Assembly: GCF_002777745.1 (NCBI RefSeq)
Contig: NZ_MEIO01000033.1
Coordinates: forward strand, 1-34,680
DNA: 34,680 bases
Source: Snodgrassella alvi
GTDB taxonomy: Bacteria > Pseudomonadota > Gammaproteobacteria > Burkholderiales > Neisseriaceae
Direction: 5' to 3'
The position numbers and the translations under genes are program-made. The notes beneath the pieces are model-generated. The model was not told the origin of the DNA. It ran no database searches and saw only the letters and a list, made by a program, of their open reading frames with translations. Positions 18,326 to 25,374 of this stretch are shown piece by piece (position 1 is the first letter of the stretch; every line of letters starts with the position of its first letter).

Positions 18326-19072
18326 ATGAGTTGTTTCACTCCTCTTGTTGAAAATCAGACTGGTCACAATCCATTCTTTTATGCTAATGGTTTAGAGAAG
18401 TATATTATACTGTGTGATTTTGACGGTACTATCAGTGAAAAAGATGTTACGGATACCTTACTGGATCATTTCGGTAATGATCAATGTGCCTTATTAGAGC
18501 AGCAATGGCTCAAAGGCATTATTGGTTCGCGTGAATGTATGCGTCAGCAAATTGCTAATATGCAAGCCAGTCAGATTGAACTGGACAGCGTGCTGGCGCA
18601 AATCAAAATCGATCCTACATTTAGCGAATTTATTGATATAGCGCGGGAAGCACATTTGAATGTGCAGATTGTCAGTGATGGGTTGGATTATGCAATTCAG
18701 TCAATTTTGAAACGGTATAATCTTGATTTGCTGCCTATTTATGCTAATAGATTATTGCATAATCAACAACAAGGCTGGAAATTAGATTTTCCTTATACCA
18801 ATCAACATTGTCTTAAAGCAAGTGGCAATTGTAAATGTCAGCATCGCCGGCAGTTGGCTGGTTTTCAGAAGATTTTTTATGTTGGTGATGGTACTTCGGA
18901 TTTTTGTGTAGCCGACAAAGTGGATCTGGTCTTTGCCAAAGATAAGTTGATTGATTTTTGTCGGCAGCACGGCATTCATCACTACCCGATTAAGAATTTT
19001 GGTGATGTTGTGGCCATTCTACCCAATCTAATTAAAACATCGGTTGAAAATCACTGCCTGTCTCCAGCATAA
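18326..19072 (+). CDS. HAD-IB family phosphatase (MtnX / phosphoserine phosphatase-like)
   Basis: A 248-residue haloacid-dehalogenase-type phosphatase. Motif I is DFDGT with Asp31 (nucleophile) and Asp33; motif II is VSDG (116-119); motif IV is GDGTSDFCVA with Asp188 and Asp192. The order and spacing fit subclass IB, which includes phosphoserine phosphatase and MtnX of methionine salvage. No other salvage gene is nearby, so MtnX function is not supported. A short cysteine/histidine group (ASGNCKCQHRRQ, residues about 167-178) is typical of MtnX-like members. It is the first gene of a plus-strand set reaching 21935; GGA sits 7 bases before ATG 18326. The substrate is unknown but probably belongs to the pathway of its neighbours. 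Confidence 0.82.
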   Translation: MSCFTPLVENQTGHNPFFYANGLEKYIILCDFDGTISEKDVTDTLLDHFGNDQCALLEQQWLKGIIGSRECMRQQIANMQASQIELDSVLAQIKIDPTFSEFIDIAREAHLNVQIVSDGLDYAIQSILKRYNLDLLPIYANRLLHNQQQGWKLDFPYTNQHCLKASGNCKCQHRRQLAGFQKIFYVGDGTSDFCVADKVDLVFAKDKLIDFCRQHGIHHYPIKNFGDVVAILPNLIKTSVENHCLSPA

Positions 19073-19096
19073 CGCTTTAATAGCTTATTTGTAATT

Positions 19097-19918
19097 ATGA
19101 TTCAAGATTCTTCTTATTTTTTACCTGGTAATCGCAATGGTGTACTTCTGATTCACGGTTTAACAGGTACACCAAATGAAATGCGTATTCTAGCCAAAGG
19201 GCTACATCAGGCAGGTTTTACAGTATATGCAATGCAACTTGCTGGTCATTGTGGTGACGAAGCTGATTTATGTCAGACCACATGGCTTGATTGGTATACC
19301 AGTGTGCAAGAGGCTGCGCAGTTTTTACAGCAACACGTTGATTGTCTGTTCGTTGGCGGATTATCGATGGGCGCATTACTGGCACTGAAGCTCGCAGCCG
19401 ATCAGCCGGAGCTGGTAAAAGGTGTTGGCGTCTATGGGGTAACGTTTAAATATGATGGCTGGTCTGTTCCTTTTTGGGCAAAAAAGTGTTTTGTTTTGTT
19501 GCCGTTTTTTAAAAGAATTCATTTATTTCAGAAAACCTCTTTTATTGAAAAACCACCATACGGACTGAAAGATGAGCGTCTTCGTGCCACAGTCGCCGCC
19601 AGCATGTTCAGTGGTGACAGTGCCAGTGCTGGTCTGGCTGGTAATCCATTCCCAGCACTGGCGGAAATGCAAGTACTGGCTAAACTTATGCGGCAGCAGC
19701 TGTCACAGGTAATTGCCCCGTGTCTGATTATGCATTCCGGTCACGATGATATTGCCAATATCAATACCAATGCCCGTCTGGTAGAAAAGCATGTTAGCGG
19801 TGCGACCCAATTCGTAGTTTTGGATGATAGCTATCATTTGATTACCATTGACCGGCAGCGACGCGAAGTCATCAACCGGTCAGTTGCCTTTTTTGAGAAT
19901 ATCGCTCAGTCAGCTTAA
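19097..19918 (+). CDS. Alpha/beta-fold hydrolase (carboxylesterase / lysophospholipase-like)
   Basis: A 273-residue serine hydrolase without signal peptide. The oxyanion-hole block GVLLIHGLTGTPNEM is near the start; the nucleophile elbow is GLSMG with Ser90; the acid is probably Asp217 or Asp218 in SGHDDIAN; the base is His247 in DSYHLIT. This triad layout resembles the Est30-type carboxylesterases and monoglyceride-lipase-like enzymes. It starts 24 bp after the phosphatase gene, so co-transcription is likely. The natural substrate could be an ester or thioester intermediate of the local pathway, but that is inference. ATG 19097 has no strong ribosome site. Confidence 0.85.
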   Translation: MIQDSSYFLPGNRNGVLLIHGLTGTPNEMRILAKGLHQAGFTVYAMQLAGHCGDEADLCQTTWLDWYTSVQEAAQFLQQHVDCLFVGGLSMGALLALKLAADQPELVKGVGVYGVTFKYDGWSVPFWAKKCFVLLPFFKRIHLFQKTSFIEKPPYGLKDERLRATVAASMFSGDSASAGLAGNPFPALAEMQVLAKLMRQQLSQVIAPCLIMHSGHDDIANINTNARLVEKHVSGATQFVVLDDSYHLITIDRQRREVINRSVAFFENIAQSA

Positions 19919-19953
19919 GTGAATACTCATCTCATAGCAGAAAGAAATATCAT

Positions 19954-20310
19954 ATGACCCTGATTGTGTTCATCTTATGGTTTGCTAATATCTGTTTTGA
20001 TACGCTTGGACAAACAGCGTTTAAATATGCAGCCATCGCACCAAACAACCGCAATGGTTGGTATTACTGGGTTGACCTGTTCAGAAATTATTGGTTATGG
20101 ATTGGTATTGGTTCCTATGTCGCTGAATTTCTGTTATGGCTAGCGTTTTTAAGTCAGGTGCCTTTGTCACAGGGTATTTTACTGGGGTCAATTAATATCA
20201 TTGTATTGATGCTGGTTGGGCGGGTTCTGTTTCAGGAAAAACTTACCAGTTTTCGGCTCACAGGCATGTTTTTTATCACCATCGGTGTAGTACTGGTAGG
20301 AGCGTCATAA
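19954..20310 (+). CDS. Four-helix SMR/DMT-like transporter, subunit 1 of a pair
   Basis: A 118-residue protein with four predicted membrane helices (about 1-22, 46-66, 73-93, 98-117), the size of a small multidrug resistance (SMR) subunit. Helix 1 contains FDTLGQTAFK. Aligned by eye with EmrE (AEVIGTTLMK), Asp16 takes the place of the essential Glu14 that couples substrate and protons. The next gene encodes a paralogue and starts on the last base of this stop codon, so the two probably form a heterodimer. In SMR proteins, paired subunits often serve specific cations or amines such as guanidinium compounds, polyamines or amino-sugar lipids; which applies is unknown. AGAAAGA precedes ATG 19954. 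Confidence 0.8.
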   Translation: MTLIVFILWFANICFDTLGQTAFKYAAIAPNNRNGWYYWVDLFRNYWLWIGIGSYVAEFLLWLAFLSQVPLSQGILLGSINIIVLMLVGRVLFQEKLTSFRLTGMFFITIGVVLVGAS

Positions 20311-20717
20311 TGCGTAAATTTTATTTGATAGGTTTTGCGCTCTTATTATTGTTCGATACGCTGGGGCAAAGCAGTTTTAAACTAACTGCTATTCATGCCC
20401 AGCCACTCGAAGCCAATTTAGGCTGGATTATTCGAGTATTTACCCAGCCATGGGTCTATATTGCTATTGCTGGCTATATTGGGGCATTTTTTACTTGGAT
20501 GATGTTACTTAAAAAAGCTCCTGTTGGTCCGGCATTTGCTGCCTCGCATCTAGAAGTAGTGACAGTAATGCTGGTTTCGGCTTTCTTATTTCATGAACAT
20601 ATTACAGCTATCCGTATTATTGGGGCAGTATTTATTGTGATTGGTATTATCTTTTTGGCTTTAGCTGAAAGAGAGCTCATACAAACCGAACACAGCAAAG
20701 ATGATAAACCGTGTTAA
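20310..20717 (+). CDS. Four-helix SMR/DMT-like transporter, subunit 2 of a pair
   Basis: A 135-residue paralogue of the preceding protein, again with four hydrophobic helices (about 4-24, 44-66, 74-94, 101-121) and a hydrophilic tail (AERELIQTEHSKDDKPC). Helix 1 carries FDTLGQSSFK with Asp16 at the same position as its partner. Its start ATG overlaps the previous stop in TAATG, so the two are translationally coupled. The matching charged residue in both subunits and the coupling support a working heterodimer that moves a cationic or zwitterionic small molecule, likely the product or substrate of the flanking enzymes. Confidence 0.8.
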   Translation: MRKFYLIGFALLLLFDTLGQSSFKLTAIHAQPLEANLGWIIRVFTQPWVYIAIAGYIGAFFTWMMLLKKAPVGPAFAASHLEVVTVMLVSAFLFHEHITAIRIIGAVFIVIGIIFLALAERELIQTEHSKDDKPC

Positions 20718-20747
20718 ATTTTCTGAGTCTGAATTTTAGTGCCATTT

Positions 20748-21935
20748 ATGCCGTACTATTATGAAAACCCGCCTACTGCCGGTTTGCCGCTGAAATGGCG
20801 TGACTGGTGGCCGACACGGCAATCATTGCCAGAAACTGTCAGTGCACAATTACATTTGCCGCCATTACAGGTAACCTGTTCTGGTACGGCAGCGTTGATT
20901 ATTGCCTTAACCGCACTGACACAACAACAGCCTCAACGCAAAACAGTAATTGTTCCGGCGTATACCTGTCCACTGGTGGCTTTGGCCATTCACCATTGCG
21001 GTTTGCAAATACAGCTATGTGATTTAAAGCCAAACAGTATTGATCTGGATACTGCGCAATTAACTACCCTGCTGAATGAGCATGTATTGGCTGTAATACC
21101 CACCCATCTGGGCGGACGAGTAACCGATGTAGCAATCGTTAAACAACTGGTACAGCCATATCAGATTAGCGTAATAGAAGATGCAGCTCAGGCATTGGGT
21201 GCTGAAGTTGGCAAGTATGGAGATATTGTATTGTTCAGCCTGGCTGCCGGTAAAGGACTAACCATATATGAAGGTGGTTTGCTAACCGCAGCTAATGCAC
21301 AGTTATGTAGCAGTTTACAAACCATAGCTAATAAATTACTGCCGTGTCGGCTCAGGTGGGAACTATTGCGAACTCTCGAACTTTTAGGATATACCGCGTT
21401 ATATAATCCTACAGGTTTACATTTTGCCTATGGTCATAGTCGGCGAAAATCCCTGCGTAAGCAGCAATGGATTGCAGCAGTAGGTGATAATTTTGATTAT
21501 GCCATCCCTTTGCATCGGGTTAGTCGCCGACGTCAGAATGTTGCGGCGAATGCCTTGCAGCGCCTACCGGCATTTTTACATACCCTGCAACAACAAGCGC
21601 AGCAACGTATTCAGCAGTTACAGAATATTTCTGGTATACAGGTGATCGTTGATCAGCATGGTCAGGGAGTATGGCCATTTTTGATGGTGTTATTGCCTAC
21701 GAGTCAGTGCCGCGATGCAGTATTAGATCAGTTATGGACCAGTCCCTTAGGCATAACCCGTTTATTTATTCATACACTGGCACAATACGACTACTTACGG
21801 CCAATTGTGCCAGCTGTGTCCATGCCAAATGCTGAAGATTTTGCAGCACGTATGTTAACTATTACCAATAGCCCATGGCTTACCGATACACAATTTTTTC
21901 GAATATGTCAGGTCATTCAGAATACTGTTTGCTGA
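20748..21935 (+). CDS. DegT/DnrJ/EryC1-type PLP-dependent aminotransferase
   Basis: A PLP enzyme of about 395 residues. Numbered from the alternative GTG at 20739, Asp148 in VIEDAAQALGAE binds the pyridine nitrogen and Lys172 in FSLAAGKGLTIYEGG is the Schiff-base lysine; VPAYTCPLVALAI and VTCSGTAALIIAL are further fold blocks. The family aminates keto sugars, cyclitols and related ketones. It differs from typical sugar aminotransferases in the AAGK-G lysine motif, where SFHxxK is common. No clear ribosome site precedes GTG 20739 or ATG 20748; I prefer ATG. The last gene of the plus-strand set, it runs 19 bp into the tail of the opposing arginase-like gene. Confidence 0.82.
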   Translation: MPYYYENPPTAGLPLKWRDWWPTRQSLPETVSAQLHLPPLQVTCSGTAALIIALTALTQQQPQRKTVIVPAYTCPLVALAIHHCGLQIQLCDLKPNSIDLDTAQLTTLLNEHVLAVIPTHLGGRVTDVAIVKQLVQPYQISVIEDAAQALGAEVGKYGDIVLFSLAAGKGLTIYEGGLLTAANAQLCSSLQTIANKLLPCRLRWELLRTLELLGYTALYNPTGLHFAYGHSRRKSLRKQQWIAAVGDNFDYAIPLHRVSRRRQNVAANALQRLPAFLHTLQQQAQQRIQQLQNISGIQVIVDQHGQGVWPFLMVLLPTSQCRDAVLDQLWTSPLGITRLFIHTLAQYDYLRPIVPAVSMPNAEDFAARMLTITNSPWLTDTQFFRICQVIQNTVC

Positions 21936-22807
21936 TACTGAGCCAAAGCAGTGAGCAGTTGTAGATTAACAGCATGGTGTTGCTCCTGCCATGCTGTCAA
22001 TGTGGCAGCAGGAATTGGTTCCTGTTTATCCATTGCGCTGAGTAGACGCTTGAGCAAACTGGTGTATTGCCATTGAGATACTTCACCGGTAATGTCACTA
22101 CCAACAATACGCTGATTCAGGGCAGTAATCACAGTCAAGAGATGCCCTATCTGCATGCGACCCTGATCCCAATTGGTTTGCACCACATTCTTATCCAGCA
22201 CATCCTTATCAATCGAAACATATACTGGTTCGCTGGTTTGTTGTTGTGCCTGTATAAAGGCGCTAACCAGTTCTTCTGGTGAAGCAAAGGCGCGAAAAGC
22301 TTGTTGCAGCCCGATTTTTTCAGCCCAGCTAACCTGTACATCCATGCACCAGTAAGTTAATTTACCTTGAAACAATGGCGCCAGCCGATTTTCCCAACAG
22401 TGAGCAAGGCCAATATCATTTGAAGTAATACCCAGTACATGCACATGGCTGACAAAAGGCAATTGCGCCACATAGCTTACCCATGAACCACAATGAATCC
22501 CAAACAGATAACGCATATTATCTGGGTGATTATCAAAAATAACTACCTGTATCGGGTTGGCAGCACTGAAATACTGTTGTAAACGTTTAATCAATAACAG
22601 TGAAATATGGTGATAGTCACCACTACCCATCAGTACCGTGCCATAGCACTCAGGTATTTGCTGTGCTAGTTCAGCCTGTAACTGTTTGAATTTGGCTTGC
22701 GAACAACCAAAACGAATGGCTTCCTGCCATTGCCACAGTTCAATTCTAACTGCATCTGCTATTGAACCTGTACTGTGGTCAAAATCCAGAATAATCGTTT
22801 TATTCAT
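21917..22807 (-). CDS. Arginase/deacetylase-fold metallohydrolase of unknown substrate
   Basis: From ATG 22807 the product has 296 residues and an apparently full binuclear metal site: His66/His67 in GSGDYHHIS, Asp92-His94-Asp96 in FDNHPD, Asp200 and Asp202 in SIDKDVLD, and a Glu in GSDITGE (242). Arginases have DAHxDxx and SxDxDxxDP at these places, so chemistry is likely preserved, but the rest is diverged and the substrate is not clear. Ureohydrolases cut guanidino groups; other fold members deacylate amines. An upstream start at 22867 is possible, but 22807 gives a compact N-terminus MNKTIILDFDHSTG and overlaps the preceding stop by 8 bp (ATGAATAA), showing coupling with the acyltransferase gene. 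Confidence 0.8.
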   Translation of the reverse strand: MNKTIILDFDHSTGSIADAVRIELWQWQEAIRFGCSQAKFKQLQAELAQQIPECYGTVLMGSGDYHHISLLLIKRLQQYFSAANPIQVVIFDNHPDNMRYLFGIHCGSWVSYVAQLPFVSHVHVLGITSNDIGLAHCWENRLAPLFQGKLTYWCMDVQVSWAEKIGLQQAFRAFASPEELVSAFIQAQQQTSEPVYVSIDKDVLDKNVVQTNWDQGRMQIGHLLTVITALNQRIVGSDITGEVSQWQYTSLLKRLLSAMDKQEPIPAATLTAWQEQHHAVNLQLLTALAQYQQTVF

Positions 22808-23888
22808 GTTTTTTGCCGTCCTGACTATGTTGCTTACTGGTTTCTTGCCAGATTTTATCCTGCTCAAAACGACTACTCATTTTGCCTAATAAAACTCTCA
22901 AAACAGGATTACGGACATATACCATATGTTTAGTAAACGTGAACCGAGCGCCTAGAGACGCTTTCACTTGCGGATCAGTCCAGCCGGCTACATAAAAATC
23001 TAATCCATGCTGCCTAGCAAAATTCAGATTATAAAACCAACTCAGATAATACAGATTCAGTTTCCGTGCTAGAGGATAAACAAAGCCAATATATTTATCC
23101 ACCAGCATATTATTCACAACAAAACAAATATTGTATCCAATCAATTGCTGTTGATAATGATAAGTAAAAATTCTCGCCTGATTGCTGCTATCCTGTAACA
23201 GCCGCACAAAAAATTCTCTGGTTAATAAATCAAAATGAATTTCACTTTGAGCATAAACATTCAAATATAACTGATAATACTGCTCTAAGACCGCCTCATC
23301 CTGAAAGCATGCATCTCCACTATGTAAACAACCAATTTCAACCAATGATTGCGTTTTTAACTTGCGCCGAAAATTTTTACGGCGCTGATAGGATAAGCGA
23401 CTCAGATATTCATCAATATCTTGAAAATCAATGGGTACCCATGCCAAAGCCTGACCTTCTACCGCAATAAATCCCTGCTGCTGCAATGACTGAATCAGTG
23501 TGGCCGCATATTCATTTGCCTGAGTATCCAATAATGGCGATTGCTGCGGAATATCTTTTACAATCAGTAGCGGGTATTTTTTTCCGTAATTCTGTTTTAT
23601 TTCTAAAGCTAATTGCTGTGCAGCTTGTTGTTGAGTGAATAAAGCATATTCAGATACCGTTGTGCCAATAAAACACGTAAGCGGTTGCAGAAAGCGTTGC
23701 CACCAGCGAAATAGCGGCCAAAGACGAATTTTCTGCTGAAATTCTGAATCAGCAGTAGTGAGTAAATCAAACCGTGCAGCAAAAGCAGGTACACCACCCG
23801 TAAGTTGCCAAGCAGTAAAATCCTGTGGAGGACTGGCCAGAAAAGTCTCCACCAGTTCATCCGGTTCCAGTTGCGTCAGATAATTCAT
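22800..23888 (-). CDS. GNAT-fold acyltransferase, FemAB / COG3146-like
   Basis: A 362-residue cytoplasmic protein. The C-terminal half looks like a FemAB/GNAT acyltransferase: LSYQRRKNFRRKLKTQS near 175 resembles the RKN-R-R motif of COG3146-type proteins, followed by LEQYYQLYLNVY, HFDLLTREFFVRLL and a core (QQLIGYNICFVVNNMLVDKYIGF). FARQHGLDFYVAGWTDPQVKASLGARF near the end is a typical FemAB-type ending. The N-terminal 130 residues are less conserved in appearance. FemAB proteins transfer aminoacyl groups and GNATs transfer acyl groups to amines, so an amine acylation is inferred. It sits 58 bp after the class III aminotransferase gene and overlaps the arginase-like gene by 8 bp. Confidence 0.68.
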   Translation of the reverse strand: MNYLTQLEPDELVETFLASPPQDFTAWQLTGGVPAFAARFDLLTTADSEFQQKIRLWPLFRWWQRFLQPLTCFIGTTVSEYALFTQQQAAQQLALEIKQNYGKKYPLLIVKDIPQQSPLLDTQANEYAATLIQSLQQQGFIAVEGQALAWVPIDFQDIDEYLSRLSYQRRKNFRRKLKTQSLVEIGCLHSGDACFQDEAVLEQYYQLYLNVYAQSEIHFDLLTREFFVRLLQDSSNQARIFTYHYQQQLIGYNICFVVNNMLVDKYIGFVYPLARKLNLYYLSWFYNLNFARQHGLDFYVAGWTDPQVKASLGARFTFTKHMVYVRNPVLRVLLGKMSSRFEQDKIWQETSKQHSQDGKKHE

Positions 23889-23900
23889 AAAATCTCATAC

Positions 23901-23934
23901 GGCAGCCGCCGGCTTAAATGCCAGCCAAGCTGCC
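23901..23934. other. Inverted repeat between class III aminotransferase and acyltransferase genes
   Basis: GGCAGC (23901-23906) pairs with GCTGCC (23929-23934), with GGC/GCC inside. It lies in the 58-bp gap of the minus-strand set and has no T-run, so it is more likely an mRNA processing or stability hairpin than a terminator. Confidence 0.35.
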
Positions 23935-23946
23935 ATCTTACGTGGA

Positions 23947-25374
23947 TTAAGCGTTTAACTCTTTTTTAGCACGCGTAATCAACTGATCTAGCAATTCAAT
24001 GCCTTGATCAATTTCCTGTTTTGTAATATGCAACGATGGGGCAAAAGTAATCACATTCTTGTAATACCCACCAATATCCAGTACCAGCCCCATTTTTTGT
24101 CCTTGCCAGTCTAGATCACCAGACATGCCGATATCTACCATCTTGTCTACTAAAGCCTTATTTGGTGTAAAGCCGTCTTCAGTGCAGATTTCGGCACGTA
24201 GTGCCAGTCCCAGACCATCTACTTCGCCGATCTCCTTATGACGCTGTTCCAAAGTTTTCAAACCTTCAAGGAAATAAGCGCCACTTTCCATAACCATTTT
24301 TTCATAATCAGTTTCTGCCATCATTCTGAATACTTCTAGCCCTACGGCAGTTCCCAGTGGATTAGAAGCAAAAGTAGAATGAGTAGAACCAGCAGGGAAT
24401 ACCTGTGGGTTAATTAATTCTTCCCGTGCCCACAGACCACCGAGTGGATTCAAACCATTGGTCAATGCCTTAGCAAATACCAGCATATCCGGTTTTACAT
24501 CAAAATGTTCAATCGACCACAGCTTACCAGTGCGGTAGAAGCCCATCTGAATTTCATCAACTACCAGCAAAATACCATACTGGTCTAAAACCTTTTTCAA
24601 TCCTTTAAAATAATTACGTGGTGGCACAATATAACCACCCGTACCTTGTAGCGGCTCTATATAGAATGCAGCATATTCAGCCTGACCTGCTTTCGGATCC
24701 CACACACCGTGGTATTCAGTTTCAAATAGACGGGCGAAATCAGCCACCAGATGTTCCCCATATTCCTCAGCTGTCATACCTTTAGGGCGACGGAACGGGT
24801 AGGGAAACGGAATAAACATTGCGCGATCGCCAAAATGACCATACCTACGGCGATAGCGGAAACTGGAAGTAATAGAAGATGCACCCAGAGTACGACCGTG
24901 ATAGCCACCTTCAAACGCAAACATCAATGAACGACCTTCAGACGCATTACGAATAATTTTCAGCGAATCCTCAATACATTGAGAACCGCCAACATTAAAA
25001 TGCACCCGACCATCGTGGCCAAATTTGCATTTCATGTCCTGAGCAATGGTTTTTGCTAGCTCAATTTTGGTTGGATGCAAATACTGACTCGCACACTGTG
25101 GCAAAGTATCTACCTGCTGCTTTAACACAGCATTCAGGCGTTCATTAGCATAACCAAAATTACAAGCCGAATACCACATCTGCAAGTCAAGATAGGGTGT
25201 GCCATTTTTATCATACATATAGCTGCCCTCGCAGCCATCAAAAATTTTTGGCGGATTAACATAATGCACCGTATCACCAAAAGAACAATACTTTGCTTCA
25301 TCTGCAAGCAATTGCACATCGTCCGGACGATTTTCAAGTATCTGAGCACTAGGCTTACTCATCATTAATTCCAT
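23947..25374 (-). CDS. Class III PLP-dependent aminotransferase
   Basis: A 475-residue fold-type I enzyme. Landmarks: GGSQCIEDSLKIIRNA (129-144), FEGGYHGRTLGA (154-165), EPLQGTGGY (240-248), VVDEIQMGFYRTGKLW (271-286, PLP Asp273) and the Schiff-base Lys302 in FAKALTNG. The family covers acetylornithine, GABA, diaminobutyrate and polyamine transaminases, which act on terminal amino or keto groups. The EPLQGTGG block and long insertion (RRRYGHFGDRAMFIPFPYPF) do not point to one member, so I leave the substrate open. First gene of the minus-strand set; internal ATGs at 25365 and 25362 (MMSKPS) have GGAATTA upstream and may be the real start. Co-directional with the acyltransferase and arginase-like genes. 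Confidence 0.88.
   Translation of the reverse strand: MELMMSKPSAQILENRPDDVQLLADEAKYCSFGDTVHYVNPPKIFDGCEGSYMYDKNGTPYLDLQMWYSACNFGYANERLNAVLKQQVDTLPQCASQYLHPTKIELAKTIAQDMKCKFGHDGRVHFNVGGSQCIEDSLKIIRNASEGRSLMFAFEGGYHGRTLGASSITSSFRYRRRYGHFGDRAMFIPFPYPFRRPKGMTAEEYGEHLVADFARLFETEYHGVWDPKAGQAEYAAFYIEPLQGTGGYIVPPRNYFKGLKKVLDQYGILLVVDEIQMGFYRTGKLWSIEHFDVKPDMLVFAKALTNGLNPLGGLWAREELINPQVFPAGSTHSTFASNPLGTAVGLEVFRMMAETDYEKMVMESGAYFLEGLKTLEQRHKEIGEVDGLGLALRAEICTEDGFTPNKALVDKMVDIGMSGDLDWQGQKMGLVLDIGGYYKNVITFAPSLHITKQEIDQGIELLDQLITRAKKELNA

Follow-up and report, generated by a model that had tools for sequence, protein, structure and literature searches.

There is strong support that eight adjacent genes of the bee-gut bacterium Snodgrassella alvi are one conserved unit, which many unrelated bacteria also carry, and not a chance neighbourhood. 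They lie in the window, by which we mean the whole stretch of 34,680 bases analysed (assembly GCF_002777745.1, contig C33 of a 2.6-Mb genome). The genes encode a phosphatase (HAD), an alpha/beta hydrolase (ABH), two half-transporters (SMR1 and SMR2), two pyridoxal phosphate (PLP) aminotransferases (DegT and the class III enzyme AT3), an arginase-fold metallohydrolase (ARG) and a FemAB-like transferase (GNAT). We propose that they form a horizontally spread pathway which makes a cationic amphiphile and delivers this product to the inner membrane's outer face, with a probability of about 0.38. The product is probably a positively charged compound that is built and exported; perhaps it is a membrane lipid.

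An earlier note on this DNA had suggested one pathway that could make, modify and export a small amine, amino sugar, cyclitol or guanidino compound. The unity of the genes was borne out. The rest of the picture changed to a modular set with an apparently aminoacyl-tRNA-dependent GNAT and with hints at lipids and the envelope.

Co-occurrence and modular structure

With ARG as the sole search profile, 80 named loci were collected; they are the best 80 among 569 confirmed relatives, and many are from Rhodanobacter, Dyella and Gilliamella. Complete loci are the 66 flanked by at least 9 kb on either side; in the other 14, one flank is shorter than 9 kb. GNAT adjoined ARG in all 80 loci. The other partners were found in 74 (SMR2), 73 (SMR1), 69 (ABH), 65 (AT3), 62 (HAD) and 54 (DegT) loci. 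The earlier note had named co-occurrence in relatives as a test of its proposal, and the outcome was strongly favourable: ARG and all six core partners were present in 50 of the 66 complete loci, and 31 of the 66 also had DegT. ABH was present in 57 complete loci and DegT in 42, leaving 24 without DegT. Open reading frame (ORF) clusters across the loci included antisense artefacts in GC-rich loci and served as leads only.

A survey of 397 genomes of the phylum, the window's own included, was independent of gene neighbourhood. ARG was found in 20 genomes and AT3 in 27 (E ≤ 1e-190). GNAT was found in 41 genomes at 1e-10, of which 26 were retained at E below 1e-35, a threshold set after inspection of the list; the 15 excluded genomes had partial matches (E of 1.5e-16 to 8.4e-11). 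AT3 and GNAT were present in all 20 ARG genomes, and in 13 of 13 when counted by genus. The hypergeometric probability of ARG falling within AT3 was 4e-28 by genome and 4e-18 by genus, calculated from hand-compiled genome sets and ignoring shared ancestry. Some copies had stop codons within the match (ARG of G079, GNAT of G259 and AT3 of G187). A family search for ARG found it in 11 of 14 members of the window's genus and in none of 69 other genomes. The three ARG-less genomes of the genus, one of them just 60% complete, were also without AT3 and GNAT.

The set is modular: HAD, AT3 and ABH form a core, GNAT and ARG a decoration, SMR1 and SMR2 a pair, and DegT is optional. AT3 was not nearby in 15 of the 80 loci. 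Nine of these were complete and were examined further; eight of the nine genomes have AT3 elsewhere, and HAD lies beside it in all eight. Seven genomes had AT3 and no ARG. In each of the five that were examined (G085, G143, G147, G167 and G233; G187 and G190 were left out), AT3 was located with HAD and ABH. In the 100% complete G085, SMR1 and SMR2 were also with these three, and GNAT was not found in that genome. As AT3, HAD and ABH stay together in ARG-less genomes, GNAT and ARG look like a decoration of this core. DegT was not found in the Gilliamella, Orbus, Wohlfahrtiimonas and Delftia loci, nor in the Rhizobium, Sinorhizobium and Agrobacterium stretches.

There were exceptions. L061 had only ARG and GNAT at the locus, and AT3 was absent from its genome. 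ABH, SMR and DegT genes were absent within 10 kb in L087, L095, L096 and L100. Separately, GNAT in L141 and L146 was accompanied by SMR genes and by a class III enzyme with only 25–26% identity to AT3 over part of its length, apart from HAD-AT3-ABH. L021 (Azospirillum) had SMR genes, class III enzymes divergent from AT3, HAD, ARG, ABH and GNAT in one stretch.

Properties of the encoded proteins

The eight ORFs were at the place and of the families that the earlier note had claimed, in agreement with Pfam and NCBIfam matches. Motif conservation was counted in alignments of homologues that include the window's own row. Lys172 of DegT was kept in 57 of 57 sequences, the HAD motifs DFDGT, SDG and GDGxSD in 67–68 of 68 per position, and Ser90 and His247 of ABH in 74 and 79 of 79, respectively. 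We take these conserved residues to be catalytic. In ARG, D84, H86, H87, D112, H114, D116, D220 and D222 were invariant in 41 aligned sequences.

GNAT was described as a FemAB/GNAT-like acyltransferase in the earlier note. The family stood, and a different chemistry is proposed: the nearest folds of the predicted structure in Foldseek were aminoacyl-tRNA-dependent transferases, including MprF, FemX and Sbb17/Sba18, and the predicted model has a tandem-GNAT catalytic fold as in MprF. GNAT thus looks aminoacyl-tRNA-dependent, judged by predicted fold. The top matches, the peptide synthases Sbb17/Sba18 (streptothricin) and FemX, were only 10–15% identical. The whole predicted model is a soluble mixed alpha/beta fold and lacks an MprF-type flippase membrane domain. 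Against the sequences of solved structures, a profile search gave one chance-level row and a further search none. An OlsB-like lipid-acyl role was the initial idea and was dropped after the fold search pointed to aminoacyl-tRNA transferases.

ARG has an arginase fold in the predicted structure, its motifs align with arginases, and the binuclear metal residues are in place. Its score for the agmatinase equivalog was far below the cut-off (25.5 versus 174.3 bits). Where plant arginase has the guanidine loop SHIEPGG, ARG has TNWDQG. The Asp of this loop (D234) occurs in at least 90% of the 41 sequences, with Glu in Roseomonas, and the remaining five letters are invariant. Among the matches listed, the closest named relatives of ARG were from Snodgrassella alvi (91%).

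HAD belongs to the MtnX-like HAD-IB subfamily (TIGR01489: 105.7 bits, cut-off 81.55), and its solved relative is 2fea. A role as MtnX in methionine salvage was rejected, as the scores were far below the equivalog cut-offs (103.6 versus 292 bits for NF007103; 85.2 versus 303.2 bits for TIGR03333). The HAD homologues also share an invariant motif, C162...G167-x-C169-K170-C171 (68 of 68), which is possibly a metal or redox site.

The best solved relative of ABH by sequence was a thermostable monoacylglycerol lipase (5.2e-30). PseC/ArnB are relatives of DegT. AT3 was 67–80% identical to the copies of Bartonella, Xanthomonas, Agrobacterium, Rhizobium and Sinorhizobium and was far better conserved than ARG or GNAT among distant copies. 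Its best solved relatives by sequence were an alanine/serine racemase and an aminotransferase deposited as hypothetical 4-aminobutyrate aminotransferase, and it reached no cut-off among the best 25 of 69 NCBIfam models. The class III enzyme of the Aureimonas and Roseomonas copies was of the GSA-aminomutase type. In Roseomonas mucosa TT14 (L016, 7497–8839) it was annotated as two overlapping pieces, both matching GSA-aminomutase models.

The earlier note had named two coupled SMR-like subunits. The stop of SMR1 and the start of SMR2 overlap as TAATG, and the two genes were on one strand in all 73 loci (of 80) that have both. For EamA, SMR2 passed the cut-off and SMR1 did not. For Multi_Drug_Res of Pfam, SMR2 scored 20.0 bits against a cut-off of 23.7, and SMR1 had no match at E 0.01. 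Asp16 was found in 78 of 84 SMR1 and in 77 of 81 SMR2 sequences.

Accessory genes in relatives

The earlier note's claim that there is no carrier protein gene holds for the eight genes. Among the relatives, however, 40 of the 80 loci carried ACP and KAS genes, which also lay beside HAD-AT3-ABH in two ARG-less genomes. The Xanthomonas KAS was FabF-like (408 bits versus 387 for PRK07314; 421 versus 494, and thus below, for fabF). One Rhizobium copy had an extra PF00487 desaturase and a CMAS-type (cyclopropane-type) gene. Two-component genes flanked HAD in representatives of Gilliamella, Orbus, Wohlfahrtiimonas, Bartonella tamiae and Rhizobium; the nearest models, all below cut-off, were RstB for an Orbaceae kinase and QseBC/PmrAB for a Rhizobium pair. 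ABC/HlyD/TolC exporter genes, which we read as MacB-like, or MipA were near the cluster in several lineages. These accessory genes point to a lipid product as well as to envelope control. In the window, KAS/ACP, desaturase, CMAS-type, two-component and exporter/MipA genes were all absent beside the eight.

On the Roseomonas mucosa plasmid (L016, 12043–14928), a single 961-aa protein combined GNAT with HAMP, HisKA and HATPase domains. This fusion with a histidine kinase ties the pathway to a two-component system, and in some relatives the pathway is probably under envelope two-component control.

Further genes were seen in single lineages. In Pigmentiphaga (L089, 10857–13478), a cyanophycin synthetase gene (1239 bits) lay between ARG and DegT; homologues (ORF cluster 59) were found in three similar loci (L063, L075 and L085). 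On a Bartonella sp. plasmid (L012, 15472–17999), ARG was followed by the gene of an MBOAT O-acyltransferase and by one with a hypothetical annotation, and a DegT homologue lay elsewhere on the plasmid.

Proposed pathway

The unity of the eight genes, their modules, the motifs and the folds of the predicted models are observed; every substrate in the following steps is inferred. AT3 would aminate a phosphorylated keto precursor, and HAD would take off the phosphate to give an amino alcohol or amine head; this step is suggested by the persistent pairing of AT3 and HAD. Acyl parts may come from ordinary lipid metabolism or, in relatives, from the dedicated KAS/ACP, desaturase and cyclopropane-synthase partners. 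The monoacylglycerol-lipase-like ABH would trim or transfer an ester. GNAT, with its predicted MprF/FemX-like fold, may attach an amino acid from aminoacyl-tRNA. ARG, judged by its predicted fold and metal-site motifs, could hydrolyse an amidine or guanidine group, for example by converting Arg to Orn on the product. DegT may provide a second, optional amino group, and the SMR pair would flip or export the product.

In its most specific form, the proposal is that bacteria make a membrane lipid of a new kind. AT3, HAD and ABH would build an amino-alcohol lipid, a soluble MprF-like enzyme would attach an amino acid taken from tRNA, ARG would trim the product, and a heterodimeric SMR flippase would flip it. 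The lipid would be common to bee-gut symbionts and plant and soil bacteria and under envelope two-component control in some of them. This full version is tentative and rather doubtful.

Alternative explanations and known systems

A serious rival is that the product is soluble: a natural product in the form of an amine or small peptide, for which an aminoacyl-tRNA-dependent enzyme would form the peptide bond, as in streptothricin, and the SMR pair would be the exporter, with the lipid genes of relatives as tailoring functions. We consider it possible, though on the unlikely side. The eight genes include neither one for carboxylate activation nor an NRPS gene. A monoacylglycerol-lipase-like ABH as frequent as in the complete loci would be unusual for a soluble antibiotic, and so would the KAS/ACP, desaturase, CMAS-type and two-component partners of the relatives.

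An Arn-like system is improbable. Here, DegT and AT3 would make a lipid-carried amino sugar, the SMR pair would be an ArnEF-type flippase, and the sugar would end on lipid A or another envelope polymer. The relation of DegT to PseC/ArnB fits this, as do the PmrAB and QseBC models near the Rhizobium two-component pair and the weak matches (24–32 bits) of both SMR proteins to the ArnE and ArnF models. The cut-offs were missed by far, however: SMR1 and SMR2 scored 26.0 and 31.6 bits for ArnF (cut-off 99) and 24.4 and 31.5 bits for ArnE (cut-off 92), and DegT scored 76.8 versus 631 bits for ArnB. Moreover, the eight genes include no glycosyltransferase, nucleotide-sugar enzyme or ArnT-like gene, and more than a third of the complete loci (24 of 66) do without DegT.

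Ordinary arginine/ornithine catabolism, with an arginase and an ornithine aminotransferase beside unrelated genes, would agree with the arginase fold of ARG and the solved relatives of AT3. It was rejected on the agmatinase score and the TNWDQG loop; the absence of a cut-off match for AT3 among the best 25 of 69 models and the co-occurrence with GNAT, HAD, ABH and SMR genes also argue against it, and we regard it as very improbable. An accidental neighbourhood of genes with separate housekeeping roles, for which no supporting evidence was found, is contradicted by the co-occurrence in the 80 loci and the 397 genomes and was rejected as wholly implausible.

The cationic amphiphile that we propose would be made by a set that works most like the Arn or MprF systems, although it qualifies as neither. 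Like Arn, it has an aminotransferase of the DegT type and paired small proteins of the EamA type, but there is no counterpart of ArnA, ArnC, ArnD or ArnT among the eight genes. MprF and the aminoacyl-phosphatidylglycerol synthases share the tandem-GNAT catalytic fold; in contrast, GNAT is predicted to be soluble, the flippase would be the separate SMR pair, and there are extra PLP, phosphatase and arginase-fold enzymes. ARG differs from the ureohydrolases (guanidinopropionase, arginase and agmatinase) in its loop, and HAD from MtnX at the equivalog level. The set does not resemble the ordinary metabolism of arginine or methionine.

Gene layout

The genes form two convergent operon-like sets, HAD-ABH-SMR1-SMR2-DegT and AT3-GNAT-ARG, whose ends overlap by 19 bases (Table 1). 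All eight ORFs are open, and the intergenic gaps are 21–58 bases. The start of ARG was corrected from that of a longer ORF. The most likely start is ATG 22807 (296 aa), which overlaps the GNAT stop by 8 nt and agrees with the 296-aa length tabulated in PMC9239279. There were 20 promoter-like sites, fewer than in shuffled sequences (mean 25.9), and 11 terminator-like sites versus a shuffle mean of 7.4 (sd 3.1). Hence, transcript ends are not claimed.

Table 1. Positions of the eight genes in the window
Gene	Product	Position	Strand	Details
HAD	HAD-IB phosphatase, MtnX-like subfamily	18326..19072	+	TIGR01489 score
ABH	Alpha/beta hydrolase, monoacylglycerol-lipase/Est30-like	19097..19918	+	PF12146 71.3 bits
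SMR1	SMR/EamA half-transporter 1	19954..20310	+	EamA 21.6 bits, below cut-off 28.2
SMR2	SMR/EamA half-transporter 2	20310..20717	+	EamA 36.2 bits
DegT	DegT/DnrJ/EryC1/StrS-type PLP aminotransferase, GTG start	20739..21935	+	PF01041 132.4 bits
ARG	Arginase-fold metallohydrolase	21917..22807	-	Likely ATG start 22807; longer TTG ORF reaches 22867
GNAT	FemAB-like tandem GNAT, possible aminoacyl-tRNA-dependent transferase	22800..23888	-	362 aa
AT3	Class III PLP aminotransferase	23947..25374	-	PF00202 243 bits

Distribution and significance

The hosts included Snodgrassella, Gilliamella, Frischella, Orbus, Bartonella, Dyella, Rhodanobacter, Frateuria, Luteibacter, Wohlfahrtiimonas, Oxalobacter, Pigmentiphaga and Delftia. 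Copies on plasmids, in part with a reduced gene number, were found in Bartonella, Xanthomonas, Agrobacterium, Rhizobium, Sinorhizobium, Roseomonas, Aureimonas and Azospirillum.

Gene trees were calculated with FastTree from the window and 34 loci chosen out of the 73 having AT3, GNAT and ARG. In the concatenated tree of these three genes, Snodgrassella (Neisseriaceae) grouped with Gilliamella and another member of the Orbaceae (local support 0.996). The Snodgrassella-Orbaceae grouping was also found in the single-gene trees of AT3 (0.993) and ARG (0.851), and Frischella joined the group in the GNAT tree (0.900). This would fit gene exchange within the bee gut. PMC9239279 reports little evidence of transfer for its specific genes, which weighs against such an exchange.

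The specific-gene table of the same paper lists an esterase, two EmrE-like proteins (135 and 118 aa), SpeB (296 aa), MtnX (248 aa), ArgD (471 aa) and a 359-aa unknown. By names and lengths, these entries appear to be seven of the eight genes described here, and they are, we infer, among the 25 genes that every Snodgrassella in that study has in common. The passages considered do not link the listed genes as a pathway. Two genomes of the window's genus, G076 and G078 (both 99% complete), were without ARG, AT3 and GNAT, which contrasts with the 25 genes common to all Snodgrassella sampled there. The earlier note knew of no described pathway with such parts; likewise, in the full text of one open-access library (a scope outside which most subscription papers and all bioRxiv preprints fall), neither a description nor an assigned product was found. 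The passages considered of PMC11547076 gave no sign of the cluster.

Among the 397 genomes sampled from the phylum, 20 (~5%) carry the ARG marker, counting that of the window, and related loci are present in Snodgrassella, Gilliamella, Frischella and Bartonella. For bee gut symbionts, engineering in one step is reported (PMC11389375). If the product is a cationic envelope component, the pathway would be a third logic beside Arn and MprF. It would also give a role to genes apparently listed as Snodgrassella-specific in the table of PMC9239279.

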